From contig JADBJK010000073.1 of assembly GCA_014874485.1 (NCBI GenBank), positions 1 through 64,000 on the forward strand: 64,000 nucleotides of DNA, given 5' to 3'. Both the position numbers and the translations under genes were made by a program. Positions 257 to 58,120 of this stretch are shown in pieces. The notes beneath the pieces were generated by a model, which saw only the letters and a list, made by a program, of their open reading frames with translations, ran no database searches and was not told the origin of the DNA. This stretch comes from Chloroflexota bacterium. GTDB taxonomy: Bacteria; Chloroflexota; Anaerolineae; DTLA01. Within the stretch, counting starts at the first letter, position 1; each line of letters begins with the position of its first letter.

Positions 257-325
257 GGCGACAGCCACCCCACGGCTTGGTGCGGATTCGTGTGATTTGC
301 GCAGATTCCCGGTTCCCAGCGACGG

Positions 326-552
326 GGGTGCATTTCAATTTGGAGGCGAGGCTGTTGCAATGGGCAGCCTCTTTCGCTGCCTGACGTAGAGCGATGGGTC
401 CGCTTGACCTCACCTAACCCCTCCCGCACCCTTCCCTTTCCTCTCCGCGGGCGGAGAAGAAAGGGGAGGGCCGGGGTGGGGATAGGTGAGGTAGATTCCG
501 CTCGACAACCGAACGATGTTTGGTCATTCCGCCCCAAAATTGAAATACACCC
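326..552. mobile_element. MITE-like element E1 with terminal inverted repeats and 8-bp target duplication
   Basis: The element starts GGGTGCATTTCAATTTGG and ends with the inverted counterpart ccaaaattgaaatacaccc. It is flanked by a direct 8-bp repeat AGCGACGG at 318-325 and 553-560, which looks like a target-site duplication. The centre is a large imperfect palindrome built on ctcacctaacccctccc and its complement. It encodes no protein. Related copies are at 13188-13453 (two ends), 29915-29955 (one end) and 51023-51150 (one end plus part of the core). The right end lies 15 bp upstream of the -35 box of the next gene. Confidence 0.75.
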
Positions 553-567
553 AGCGACGGCATTTGC

Positions 568-595
568 TTGACCTGAACGCGCTCTATGCTATAAT
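568..595 (+). promoter_or_regulatory. Sigma-70 promoter of the Asp-box protein gene
   Basis: TTGACC at 568-573 and TATAAT at 590-595 are separated by 16 bp. This is a near-consensus promoter 80 bp ahead of the start codon at 675. Confidence 0.7.
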
Positions 596-13151: not shown

Positions 13152-13179
13152 ATTATACGGGAACTGGCCGCATTGGCAA
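13152..13179 (-). promoter_or_regulatory. Promoter of the zinc-ribbon membrane protein gene
   Basis: On the minus strand TTGCCA (13179-13174) and TATAAT (13157-13152) are separated by 16 bp. The left end of element E2 begins 8 bp upstream of the -35 box. Confidence 0.6.
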
Positions 13180-13187
13180 ACTGCGCA

Positions 13188-13453
13188 GGCGCATTTCCAT
13201 TTTGGGGCGAGAACGGCCGAATGTCGTTAGGTTGTCGCGCAGAATCTACCTCACCTATCCCCTCCCCGGCCCTCCCCTTTCCTCTCCGCGGGCGGAGAGG
13301 AAAGGGGAGGGTGTGGGAGGGGTTAGGTGAGGTCAAACAGCCCCTTCGCTGTGCGGCGGGCGGCGAAAGTGGATTTCGTTGGTGGGGAGCGGCTCACGGC
13401 CCTGCTCCGACGTGCCCATTGCAGCAGGCTTGCCCCCAAACTGAAATGCACCC
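13188..13453. mobile_element. MITE-like element E2
   Basis: Same family as the element at 326-552. It has ends GGCGCATTTCCATTTTGGGG and, inverted, cccccaaactgaaatgcaccc. A central palindrome is built on cctcacctatcccctccc and cctcccctttcctctccg with its complement. No target duplication can be recognised. Divergent promoters lie just outside both ends: the minus-strand one 8 bp away and the plus-strand one 16 bp away. Confidence 0.7.
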
Positions 13454-13469: not shown

Positions 13470-13498
13470 TTGACGACAGGCGGCGTTCTCGGTACAAT
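13470..13498 (+). promoter_or_regulatory. Promoter of the SAM hydrolase gene
   Basis: TTGACG (13470-13475), 17 bp, TACAAT (13493-13498), 17 bp ahead of the start codon at 13516. Confidence 0.65.
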
Positions 13499-15671: not shown

Positions 15672-15835
15672 GCTAGCCCAGGGATTCTTGACCGCATGTC
15701 ATTGCGAGGGCGCGCAACGCCCGTAGGGACAATTCATGAATTGTCCCTACTGAGGCGCGGAGCACCGAAGAAGCTCGCCGGCCGAGATTGCTTCGCTTCG
15801 CTCGCAATGACAGCCGGCAATCCCTCTGTCGCAAG
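15672..15835. repeat. Family A repeat with 26-bp palindrome
   Basis: Non-coding spacer between convergent genes. The palindrome TAGGGACAATTCA plus its reverse complement is at about 15725-15750, inside gcgcgcaacgcccg ... gaggcgcggagc. Confidence 0.85.
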
Positions 15836-16577: not shown

Positions 16578-16692
16578 TTGTCATTGCGAGGAGCGCAGCG
16601 CCCGTAGGGACAATTCATGAATTGTCCCTACTGAGGCGCGGAGCGCCGAAGAATCTCGCCAACCGAGATGCTTCGCTCGCAATGACAGAGTG
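16578..16692. repeat. Family A repeat with 26-bp palindrome
   Basis: Non-coding. It begins tgtcattgcgaggagcgcagc, contains the full 26-bp palindrome at about 16607-16632 and ends gctcgcaatgacag. It sits between the acyltransferase and phosphoglycosyltransferase genes. Confidence 0.85.
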
Positions 16693-21954: not shown

Positions 21955-22195
21955 ACGAGGAGCGCAGCGCCCGTAGGGACAATTCATGAATTGTCCCTAC
22001 TGAGGCGCGAAGCCGCGAAGAATCTCGTCAACGAGATGCTTCGCTTCGCTGATGCTTCGCTTCGCTGATGCTTCGCTTCGCTGATGCTTCGCTTCGCTCA
22101 GCATGACAAATGGAGCGTGGGATTGCTTCGCTTCGCTCGCAATGACAAATGAGGTGTCATTGCGAGGGGCGCAGCCCCGAAGCAACCCCGAACGT
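21955..22195. repeat. Family A repeat with four 16-bp tandem units
   Basis: It contains the 26-bp palindrome (about 21974-21999). At 22035-22098 there are four perfect tandem copies of gatgcttcgcttcgct, apparently an expansion of the family A module. It continues to tgcgaggggcgcagccccgaag. No gene is seen. Confidence 0.85.
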
Positions 22196-28174: not shown

Positions 28175-29496
28175 GTCTGCGCGAGTTCATTCGCCTGGCC
28201 GAGCAGGCGGGCAGGCTCACCCGCGTGGACCGCGAGGTGGACCGCCATCTGGAACTGGCCGCCGTTGCCGCGGACCTGGACGGGCAGGCGGTGCTGTTCC
28301 GGCGGGTGCGGGGCTACGATACCCCTGTCCTCGTGGGCGTGTGCAGCGACCGCGAGTTGATCGCGCGAAGCCTGGGCGTGGAGCGGCGCGAACTGCTGGC
28401 GGCGCTGGCCCGCGCGCTGGAGCATCCCGTGCCTCCGCCGCTGGTGCCCGACGCGCCCTGCCAAGAAGTCGTGGAGCCGCGCGTGGACCTGGACACCATC
28501 CCCATCCTCACGCACATCCCGAGCGACGGCGGGCCGTACATCACGTCGGGCGTCGCCATCATCCGAGACCCTGATTTGGGCCGCAACATGTCGTTCCACC
28601 GCCTCATGCAGATCGGCCCCAATCGGTTTGCGGCGCGAGTAGTGGAAGGCCGGGGCACAGCCACCGCGCTCGCCAAAACGGGGGGCCGTCTGGATGTCGC
28701 CATCTGCATCGGCGTGTCGCCTGCGGTGCTGCTGGCCGCCGCCATGTCGCCGCCCAAGGGCGTGGACGAACTGGGCATCGCCCACGCGCTCAGGCCGACG
28801 CCCCTGGTGCGCTGCAAGACCATTGACCTGGAGGTGCCCGCCGAGTCGGAGTTCGTCCTGGAAGGGCGCTTCACAGGCGAATATGCCGCCGAGGGGCCGT
28901 TCATAGACCTGACGGAGACGTGGGACATCGTCCGACAGCAGCCCGTCGTGGAGATTCAGTGCATCACGCGGCGCCGCGACCCCATCTACCACGCGCTGCT
29001 GCCGGGCAAGAGCGAGCACAAGGTGCTGATGGGCATGCCCCGCGAGCCGACCATCTTCGCCGAGGTCTCCAAAGTGGCCGAATGCCTGGACGTGCTCATC
29101 ACGCCGGGCGGCACCTCGTGGCTGCACGCCGTGGTGCAGATTCGCAAGCGGCACGAGGACGACGGGAAGCGGGCGATTGAGGCGGCCTTCCGCGGGCACG
29201 GCTCACTGAAGCATGTGGTCGTCGTGGACGAGGATGTGGACATCCACAACCCGGCCGACGTGGAGTGGGCCATCGCCACGCGGTTCCAGGCGTCGCGGGA
29301 TTTGGTCGTCCTGGCCGACCAGCCCGGCAGTTCGCTGGACCCCTCAGCGCGCCACGTGCCCGGCCAGAAGACGCGCACGGACAAGATGGGGCTGGACGCG
29401 ACCATCCCGTGGCGGGACCACGCGGGCCGACTCCGCAGCACCGAGGAGCGGGCGGAGTTCCGCCGCGTAAAGTACCCGCCCAGTCCTTTGCTGTGA
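28171..29496 (+). CDS. UbiD-family decarboxylase, candidate trans-anhydromevalonate 5-phosphate decarboxylase
   Basis: A 441-residue prenylated-FMN-dependent decarboxylase. Characteristic segments are DLGRNMSFHRLMQIGPNRFA, EFVLEGRFTGEYAAEGPFID, LTETWDIVRQQPVVE and RRRDPIYHALLPG. Known UbiD enzymes act in quinone synthesis, aromatic acid metabolism, or the archaeal mevalonate branch. Coupling to ubiX and to mevalonate kinase points to the last: decarboxylation of trans-anhydromevalonate 5-phosphate to isopentenyl phosphate. The sequence EGPFIDLT, rather than EGPFGEYTGYY, also recalls archaeal members (from memory). A menaquinone-pathway role remains possible. Confidence 0.85.
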   Translation: MSLREFIRLAEQAGRLTRVDREVDRHLELAAVAADLDGQAVLFRRVRGYDTPVLVGVCSDRELIARSLGVERRELLAALARALEHPVPPPLVPDAPCQEVVEPRVDLDTIPILTHIPSDGGPYITSGVAIIRDPDLGRNMSFHRLMQIGPNRFAARVVEGRGTATALAKTGGRLDVAICIGVSPAVLLAAAMSPPKGVDELGIAHALRPTPLVRCKTIDLEVPAESEFVLEGRFTGEYAAEGPFIDLTETWDIVRQQPVVEIQCITRRRDPIYHALLPGKSEHKVLMGMPREPTIFAEVSKVAECLDVLITPGGTSWLHAVVQIRKRHEDDGKRAIEAAFRGHGSLKHVVVVDEDVDIHNPADVEWAIATRFQASRDLVVLADQPGSSLDPSARHVPGQKTRTDKMGLDATIPWRDHAGRLRSTEERAEFRRVKYPPSPLL

Positions 29497-29499
29497 AAT

Positions 29500-29912
29500 T
29501 CGCACCGCAGAGACGCAGAGGGCGCAGAGAATTCAAGGTCGGTCTCTGCGGTCTCCGCGTGCTCTGCGGTGAATTTCGCACCGCACCGCAGAGGGCGCAG
29601 AGGGCGCGGAGAATTCGGGGCAAATCTCCGCGTTCTCCGTGGTCTCTGCGGTGAATGGAGGGCACGTATCACCGCAGAGACGCAGAGGGCGCGGAGGACT
29701 CAATTATTTTTTCTCCGCGTTCTCCGTGGTCTCTGCGGTGAATTTCGTACCGCAGAGACGCAGAGGGCGCGGAGGTCGGGGCACGAAGGGCGCGAAACCC
29801 CACGAAAAGCACGAAAGGGTTTCGCGCCTTTTCGCGTCCTTTCGCGGCTTTCGTGTTCCACATCCGCCGCGCTCTCCGCGGTGAATTTCGCACCGCAGAG
29901 ACGCAGAGGCGA
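29500..29912. repeat. Family B repeat array
   Basis: About five modules of caccgcagagacgcagagg with intervening inverted counterparts such as ctctgcggtgaat. An extra piece, aaaccccacgaaaagcacg and gtttcgcgccttttcgcgtc, is shared with the array at 44.3-44.8 kb. No gene is seen. Confidence 0.85.
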
Positions 29913-29914
29913 GG

Positions 29915-29955
29915 TGCCCATTGCAGCGGACTTGCCCCCAAACGGGAATGCACCC
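29915..29955. mobile_element. Solo end of the MITE-like element family
   Basis: The sequence gtgcccattgcagcggactt followed by gcccccaaacgggaatgcaccc nearly matches the right end of the element at 13188-13453. No second end is present. It lies 14 bp upstream of the -35 box of nfeD. Confidence 0.65.
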
Positions 29956-29969
29956 CCCTTGCCGCTGTG

Positions 29970-29999
29970 TTGCGCGAAACACCGCTTTCGGGCTATAAT
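29970..29999 (+). promoter_or_regulatory. Promoter of nfeD
   Basis: TTGCGC (29970-29975), 18 bp, TATAAT (29994-29999), 20 bp ahead of the ATG at 30020. Confidence 0.6.
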
Positions 30000-44264: not shown

Positions 44265-45000
44265 CGGCGGAAATTCACCGCAGAGACCGCGGAGAACGCG
44301 GCGGATGTGGAACACGAAAGCCGCGAAAGGACACGAAAGGCGCGAAAACCTTTCGTGCCCTTCGTGCTCCAATCTCTGCGACCTCTGCGTCTCTGCGGTG
44401 CGGGAGGGTTTTCACCGCAGAGCACGCGGCGGATTTGGAACACGAAAACCGCGAAAGGACACGAAAGGCGCGAAAACCTTTCGTGCCCTTCGTGCTCCAA
44501 TCTCTGCGACCTCTGCGTCTCTGCGGTGCAGTGCGAATTTCGCCGCGGAGAACGCGGCGGATGTGGAACACGAAAGCCGCGAAAGGACACGAAAGGCGCG
44601 AAAACCCTTTCGTGCTTTTCGTGGGGTTTCATGCCCTTCGTGCTCCGATCTCCGCGCCCTCTGCGTCTCTGCGGTGCAGTGCGAATTTCGCCGCGGAGAA
44701 CGCGGCGGATGTGGAACACGAAAGCCGCGAAAGGACACGAAAGGCGCGAAAACCCTTTCGTGCTTTTCGTGGGGTTTCATGCCCTTCGTGCTCCGATCTC
44801 CGCGCCCTCTGCGTCTCTGCGGTGCAGTGCGAATTTCACCGCAGAGACCACAGAGAACGCAGAGAAAAAGAAAGTTTTGAGTCCTCCGCGACCTCTGCGT
44901 CTCTGCGGTGCGGGAGGGTTTTCACCGCAGAGCACGCGGAGAACGCGGAGATTTGCCCCGAATTCTCCGCGCTCTCTGTGTTCTCTGTGGTGATAGGAGG
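44265..45000. repeat. Family B repeat array with two tandem 148-bp units
   Basis: At least five modules bounded by ccgcagagaccgcggagaac and ctctgcgtctctgcggtg. Units at 44523-44670 and 44671-44818 appear identical with a period of 148 bp. Inside each is cacgaaagccgcgaaaggac, and later ccctttcgtgcttttcgtgg, which can fold back. Long open frames cross the array but look like repeat artefacts. The gap holds no gene. Confidence 0.85.
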
Positions 45001-49824: not shown

Positions 49825-50250
49825 TTCCCGCTGTCATTGCGCGCGAAGCGTCTCGGCTGACGAGATTCTTCGCGGCTTCGCGCCTCAGAATGACAAGGCT
49901 ATTGTCATGCTGAGCGAAGCGAAGCATCTCACGCTCCGGGGATTGCTTCGGGCACTCCGTGCCCTCGCAATGACAAAGCCTGTCTGTCATTGCGCGCGAA
50001 GCGACGCAATCCCCACGTGCGACGCACCTCGGAGGTGCGTCGCACGTGCCTTCTCACGTCATTGCGCGCGAAGCGTCTCGGCTGACGAGATTCTTCGGCG
50101 CTCCGCGAACGTTCAATCCACGAATCGCACGAATCTACACGAATGTAACAGGCTCCCCTCACTGTCATGCTGAAGCGAAGCGTCTCGGCTGACGAGATTC
50201 TTCGCGGCTTCGCGCCTTAGTAGGGACAATTCATGAATTGTCCCTACGGG
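49825..50250. repeat. Family A repeat cluster
   Basis: Several modules (gctgtcattgcgcgcgaagcg, cgcctcagaatgacaagg), a palindromic cgacgcacctcggaggtgcg near 50020, and a 26-bp palindrome copy at about 50221-50247. No gene is recognisable. Confidence 0.8.
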
Positions 50251-50315
50251 CGCTGCGCACCCCCGCACTGACCCACCACCAGAATCCCTGTGGTAGAGTC
50301 CCAGTGCGAGAAATC

Positions 50316-50977: not shown

Positions 50978-51006
50978 ATGCTACAACAACTCGCGCGATT
51001 TGTCAA
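50978..51006 (-). promoter_or_regulatory. Promoter of the repressor-thioredoxin operon
   Basis: Minus strand: TTGACA (51006-51001), 17 bp, TAGCAT (50983-50978). The operator lies just downstream. Confidence 0.6.
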
Positions 51007-51022: not shown

Positions 51023-51150
51023 GGGTGCATTTCAATTCTGGGACGCGAGTGCCCGGACATCGTTCGGTTGCCGAGCGGAATGTACCCCACCTAGCCCGAC
51101 CCCGGTTCTCCCCTTTTCCTCTCCGTAGGCGGGGAGGAAAGGGGAGGGCA
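51023..51150. mobile_element. Partial MITE-like element E3
   Basis: It begins GGGTGCATTTCAATTCTGGG and continues with acatcgttcggttgccgagc and ccccttttcctctccg, matching the inverted right half of the element at 326-552. The other end is missing. The end lies 16 bp outside the -35 box of the repressor gene. Confidence 0.65.
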
Positions 51151-56584: not shown

Positions 56585-56790
56585 CTTCACCACAGGGATT
56601 CTTGATGCCGTGTCATAGCGAGGGCACACAGCGCCCGTAGGGACAATTCATGAATTGTCCCTACTGAGGCGCGCAGCGCCGAAGAATCTCGTCAACCGAG
56701 ATGCTTCGCTTCGCTCAGCATGACAGATGGAGCGTGAGATTGCTTCGCTTCGCTCGCAATGACAACGGACTCTCTTCTCTGTGGTCAACT
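56585..56790. repeat. Family A repeat with 26-bp palindrome
   Basis: It begins ccacagggattcttgatgcc, has the palindrome at about 56639-56664 and ends ctctgtggtcaact just after the rplL stop. The gap otherwise contains no gene. Confidence 0.85.
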
Positions 56791-57890: not shown

Positions 57891-57920
57891 CCCACAGTCT
57901 GGGACCGAAAGGGTGCGTGG

Positions 57921-57962
57921 CCAAAAACAAAAAGCCTTTGCGCCAGCCGACGCAAAGGCTTT
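57921..57962 (-). terminator. Attenuator upstream of rplJ
   Basis: On the minus strand AAAGCCTTTGCG and CGCAAAGGCTTT form a strong hairpin with loop TCGGCTGG, followed by TTTGTTTTT. It lies downstream of the L10 leader fold, so transcription into rplJL is probably attenuated. Confidence 0.85.
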
Positions 57963-57984
57963 GCAATACCCACACGCACGCCAA

Positions 57985-58120
57985 GCGGTCTTGCCGCGCC
58001 CTGCTGGGCGGTACCCTGCCCAGGGACGGCACTCGCGTGGGAACTCCAATCCTTTGCCTCGGCAGGACTTACGCACCGAAGTGCACCTGCTGTCACCGGC
58101 ACAGGAACGTATTCGGTTGG
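57985..58120 (-). ncRNA. L10 leader (ribosomal protein L10 autoregulatory RNA)
   Basis: The minus-strand sequence has the conserved core GACAGCAGGTGCACTTCGGT, then GTAAGTCCTGCCGAGG and AAAGGA, as in the L10 leader family that mimics the L10 binding site on 23S rRNA. It begins just after rplA and ends before the attenuator hairpin. Confidence 0.85.

Follow-up and report, generated by a model that had tools for sequence, protein, structure and literature searches.

Why do the ends of palindromic repeats in the genome of a Chloroflexota bacterium lie at nearly the same distance from the -35 boxes of different genes? The question was raised by a stretch of 64,000 nucleotides (the window), in which an earlier note had described five such ends and had suggested either a MITE that targets promoters or an upstream activator site spread by transposition. 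We propose, with a probability of about 93%, that the repeats are a non-autonomous MITE family, mobilised in trans by an ISKra4-family transposase and inserting at a fixed distance upstream of promoters. The features of the window on which the analysis is based are as follows.

318-325: left copy of the 8-bp target-site duplication, AGCGACGG, identical to 553-560
326-552, plus strand: MITE of 227 bp, complete, with the A end (GGGTGCATTTCAATTTGG...) on the left and the B end on the right
405-495: central near-perfect palindrome of this first copy (fold -35.2 kcal/mol as DNA, z -7.9)
553-560: right copy of the target-site duplication, AGCGACGG
568-595, plus strand: predicted promoter TTGACC-16-TATAAT, with 15 bp between the B end and its -35; the gene downstream encodes a BNR-repeat protein
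13152-13179, minus strand: predicted promoter TTGCCA-16-TATAAT, with 7 bp between the B end and its -35, an outlier; the gene downstream encodes a zinc-ribbon protein
13187-13453, minus strand: complete MITE from the longer, ~266-bp subfamily, running from the B end (13187) to the A end (13453)
13470-13498, plus strand: predicted promoter TTGACG-17-TACAAT, with 16 bp between the A end and its -35; the gene downstream encodes a SAM hydroxide adenosyltransferase
29912-29955, minus strand: MITE fragment with the A end only (~44 bp), the remainder lost into a CCGCAGAGACGCAGAGG repeat array
29970-29999, plus strand: predicted promoter TTGCGC-18-TATAAT, with 14 bp between the A end and its -35; the gene downstream encodes NfeD
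50978-51006, minus strand: predicted promoter TTGACA-17-TAGCAT, with 16 bp between the B end and its -35; the gene downstream encodes a CsoR-type repressor
51023-51150, minus strand: MITE fragment with the B end and most of the central palindrome, the A half lost

All five ends were present, and the gaps of 15, 16, 14 and 16 bp given earlier for the edges at 552, 13453, 29955 and 51023 were measured again at the same lengths; the intervening sequences are AGCGACGGCATTTGC (15), GACTCCAGCCGCGCCT (16), CCCTTGCCGCTGTG (14) and, read leftward, CGGGCCCCAAAGACGT (16). The fifth end does adjoin a -35 box, but with its boundary at 13187 the distance is 7 bp and not 8, and the copies at 29955 and 51023 need correction to fragments. 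The products that had been named for the four adjoining genes (Asp-box protein, SAM hydrolase, nfeD and CsoR-type repressor) were borne out by Pfam, which returned BNR/Sortilin repeats, SAM hydroxide adenosyltransferase, NfeD and metal-sensitive (CsoR-type) repressor, respectively.

The family comprises forms of ~227 and ~266 bp with the terminal repeat GGGTGCATTTCMR and target duplications of 8-9 bp. In the first copy the terminal repeats read GGGTGCATTTCAA and GGGTGTATTTCAA, and the 8-bp direct repeat noticed previously is exact. Two types of end do exist, as had been seen, but they are the A end (..CAGTTTGGGGGCAAGGCTGCTGCAATGGGCA) and the B end (..CATTTTGGGGCGAGAATGACCGAATGTCGTTAGGTTG) of one element. 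The 227-bp copy is immobile unless a transposase is supplied in trans. At the SAM-hydrolase MITE (13187-13453) there is no target duplication and the upstream gene differs from that in both congeners (L360, L361), which together suggest a rearrangement.

The central palindrome (CCTCACCTAACCCCTCCC...GGGATAGGTGAGG; 405-495 in the window, and loci L083, L091, L096, L084 and L092) is a separate module. It was found without MITE ends in the congener G001, and inside an unrelated MITE with ends CTCGACAATGTTAAATTC in G007, a genome from another family; it was therefore rejected as a defining feature. Other repeats also occur in the window. A second dispersed repeat, the palindrome TAGGGACAATTCATGAATTGTCCCTA, has seven copies (104-137, 2809-2842, 15724-15757, 16605-16638, 21974-22007, 50221-50254 and 56638-56671), which lie within repeats of the TGTCATTGCGAG type. 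A CACCGCAGAGACGCAGAGG-type repeat forms inverted and tandem arrays at 29469-29909 and at 44286-44992, the latter with 128/148-bp periods, and one such array abuts the MITE fragment at 29912. An Rfam match to the L10 leader was located at 57919-58117 on the minus strand.

Within the window alone the end motif is not above chance (16 matches at up to 3 mismatches, 14.6 expected). Across the genome (3.74 Mb, 122 contigs, 95.7% complete), the 13-base end gave 165 matches at up to 2 mismatches, against 48 for the reversed control, and many further copies align with most of the element at 326-552, at 82-94% identity. Among the loci fetched by sequence search we recognised 60 elements or fragments, 36 of them with both ends; many copies lie at contig ends, so that the assembly breaks within them and the list is a sample rather than a full census. 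Short length, terminal inverted repeats, dispersed copies and exact 8-9 bp duplications at many of them are all features of a MITE.

Promoters were predicted with a consensus-based matrix covering the -35 and -10 boxes with a spacer of 15-19, and are not mapped transcription starts; a strong promoter was one scoring at least 10, and a score of at least 9 was used in counting complete elements. The 95 ends with enough flank included 45 with a strong sigma70-like promoter whose -35 started 13-17 bp outward, with a peak at 15; other 5-bp windows between 23 and 92 bp had a mean of 0.53 and shuffled flanks 0.4. The absence of any preferred promoter distance genome-wide had been set beforehand as grounds for giving up the idea, and the preference is present. 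Among 35 complete elements with both flanks, 30 had a predicted promoter, at exactly one end in 28 and at both ends in 2; the remaining 5, with a promoter at neither, count against the explanation proposed. For comparison, the specificity that defines the ISKra4 group is a sigmaA -35 at 13-17 bp in >20% of insertions, a level that the predicted promoters exceed here whether ends (45/95) or complete elements (30/35) are counted. The B end is the one usually concerned (31/46 B ends and 14/49 A ends with strong promoters), and in the one-ended cases it faced the promoter 23 times against 5 for the A end (two-sided binomial p ~0.001). The predicted promoters beside the MITEs also possess an extended -10, TGTGNTATAAT; since the matrix did not use this feature, it counts as an independent sign that they are real promoters.

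Could the transposase simply read the shape or composition of upstream intergenic DNA, where promoters happen to be common? Most insertions are indeed intergenic, as expected of sites near promoters. The peak is only 3-4 bp wide and anchored 7 bp from the -35 box, and the 15 bp between element and -35 is GC-rich with no motif detected in it, both of which make this explanation highly improbable. We give virtually no credence to another, that a longer repeat including the -35 was duplicated and that the element carries part of the promoter. No point in its favour was found; the target duplications separate element from promoter, the flanks are unrelated between copies, and it is contradicted by the promoters that stand at empty sites in the congeners.

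Such sites are available in two congeners. The SAM-hydrolase promoter is present in both without the element, and four further insertions give the same picture: both congeners lack the element and retain the promoter and the gene, on five flanks in all, since one of the insertions has a gene on either side. At two of the four sites the sequence of G002 runs across the junction, and the target stands there once instead of twice (CGCACATT... and AATAGGGCG...). Judged by these comparisons, the predicted promoters preceded the insertion of the elements. Both the duplications and the empty sites that the earlier note had advised looking for in related genomes were thus found.

The geometry of insertion was examined in those MITEs and insertion sequences that have an exact 8- or 9-bp duplication and a predicted promoter. 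Duplications of 8 bp were mainly paired with a distance of 15 and those of 9 bp with 16 (Mann-Whitney p = 6e-6), and distance minus duplication length equalled 7 in 33/45 cases. The promoter-side cut is therefore fixed 7 bp upstream of the -35 box and the other cut varies, the spread between 15 and 16 bp following the length of the duplication.

The end pattern is multi-copy in many other genera of the class, with controls near zero, and the MITEs of these genera have unrelated interiors and the same spacing. Ends with a correspondingly placed promoter numbered 22/30 in G149, 17/59 in G218, 8/32 in G007, 3/7 in G035 and 3/10 in G019. Several genomes, among them G277, G137 and G227, harbor insertion sequences (1.4-1.6 kb) that encode a transposase and share the ends of the MITEs, one B-like and one A-like; the full-length transposon with matching ends that the earlier note had advised testing for is found in other genomes. 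The transposase matches the NCBIfam ISKra4 model (NF033572) with 192 bits on its C-terminal part, below the family cut-off of 205 bits for that fragment, and also matches Pfam UPF0236. The named relatives that a transposase search returned are Chloroflexota, largely Anaerolineae. The insertion sequences have duplications of 8-9 bp, mostly 9, and in most copies one of the two ends has a predicted promoter at a distance of 14-18 bp, usually 16. The 15/16 spacing is also seen in many distant members of the ISKra4 family, taken from Poribacteria, Bryobacterales, Gammaproteobacteria and Planctomycetota.

In G137 and G227 (L141-L189) the ISKra4-family transposases are in two overlapping frames, yet these elements target promoters. 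Overlapping frames, seen in several of the Anaerolineae insertion sequences, are a trait of the ISMich2 group, for which no promoter targeting was reported (PMC3942029). Membership of that group was not concluded from them, as related copies in other genomes, at 50-55% identity, have a single ORF.

The common spacing bears also on the second suggestion of the earlier note, that the element is an upstream activator or UP-like site, spread by transposition and selected where its distance to a promoter suits. The spacing would be compatible with an activator dependent on helical phase, and among solitary fragments inside contigs the promoter-side end is the one kept in 10/13 (promoter score of at least 9). 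Loss of the far half would equally be expected from selection against deletions that reach the promoter and harm the gene. Selection on the promoter-side end was not seen in the conservation of the terminal repeats, where mismatches are alike (0.75 promoter-side, 0.61 far), and full-length insertion sequences, as well as MITEs with unrelated interiors, keep the same distance. We consider an activator site very unlikely and did not retain it; its companion, the promoter-targeting MITE, was upheld by the target duplications, the ~60 copies and fragments, the sharp peak at 14-16 bp, the empty sites in relatives and the autonomous relatives with the same ends and spacing.

For the promoter-targeting MITE, we envisage a DDE transposase of the ISKra4 family (Mutator-like, p-MULT 4) that would act in trans to mobilise it and would bind the two slightly different terminal repeats. 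Insertion would take place upstream of sigma70-type promoters, with one strand cut 7 bp upstream of the -35 box and the other 8-9 bp further away, so that the edge of the element would come to lie 15 or 16 bp from the -35, usually with the B end toward the promoter. What is recognised may be promoter-bound RNA polymerase, as proposed for the superfamily (PMC3942029). Against this explanation, an ISKra4-family transposase was sought in this assembly and in two congeners and was not detected.

The ends common to elements with an ISKra4-family transposase, and the duplications of 8-9 bp, place the window elements close to that family. They are too short to encode a transposase of their own, and since they encode none and none was detected in the genome, they are filed as MITE derivatives and not as ISKra4 insertion sequences. 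Membership of IS256 (p-MULT 1), which has no preferred promoter position, was rejected in view of the sharp positional peak and of the match of the relatives' transposase to ISKra4.

Within a single bacterial class, many genera have probably seen separate radiations of promoter-targeting MITEs, which differ in their interiors and have come to sit next to dozens of promoters in each genome; the promoter-side cut would be anchored at 7 bp from the -35, on its upstream side, and the spacing of 15/16 bp would depend solely on the 8/9-bp stagger. Many promoters in this genome now have a transposon end just upstream, and regulation of dozens of adjoining genes may be affected. Such high-copy MITEs are natural promoter markers, precise to the base pair, and their positions tell which promoters were probably occupied or recognised in organisms known mostly from metagenomes. 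They extend the targeting rule of full-length elements to copies without a transposase, and the anchored cut places a concrete geometric constraint on the proposed contact between transposase and RNA polymerase.

That rule is already known for full-length elements from two studies. Guerillot et al. 2014 (PMC3942029) reported insertion 13-17 bp upstream of sigmaA promoters for the ISKra4 group and a similarly constant upstream distance to such promoters for TnGBS/ISLre2 elements. In both, the target duplications measure 8-9 bp and the orientation depends on the unequal ends, and the authors proposed that the initiation complex of RNA polymerase is contacted. A 2022 survey (PMC9208149) found that ISKra4 and ISLre2 elements favour positions 50-250 bp from genes. 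Like the window MITEs, the ISKra4 group (p-MULT 4; PMC3942029) has terminal repeats starting with GGG, 8-9 bp duplications, the 13-17 bp spacing and promoters on either side; the window MITEs differ in their length of 227-266 bp, the lack of a transposase, asymmetric ends and the 23:5 preference for the B end. The ISLre2 insertion sequences and TnGBS conjugative elements (p-MULT 3; PMC3942029) resemble them in lying 15-17 bp upstream of the -35 and in being oriented by unequal ends, but are mostly from Firmicutes, and membership was rejected since the transposase of the autonomous relative fits ISKra4 better (192 bits against 98 for ISLre2).

Correia, RUP and other prokaryotic MITEs are similarly short, dispersed and noncoding, with terminal repeats and target duplications; the parts of the review consulted (PMC10969869) treat them as carriers of promoters or IHF sites and do not describe insertion at a fixed distance upstream of existing promoters, and the review mentions neither ISKra4 nor Mutator. 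In the literature searched, open access with a few subscription journals, we found no description of MITEs with such promoter specificity or of the anchored cut. Yeast Ty3 also inserts by transcription start regions and is thought to be guided by the transcription machinery (an analogy cited in PMC3942029), but it employs a retrotransposon integrase at Pol III genes, an unrelated machinery. Set beside these systems, what is new here is the MITE family itself, together with the class-wide occurrence of families like it; the promoter-targeting kind to which they belong was known before.
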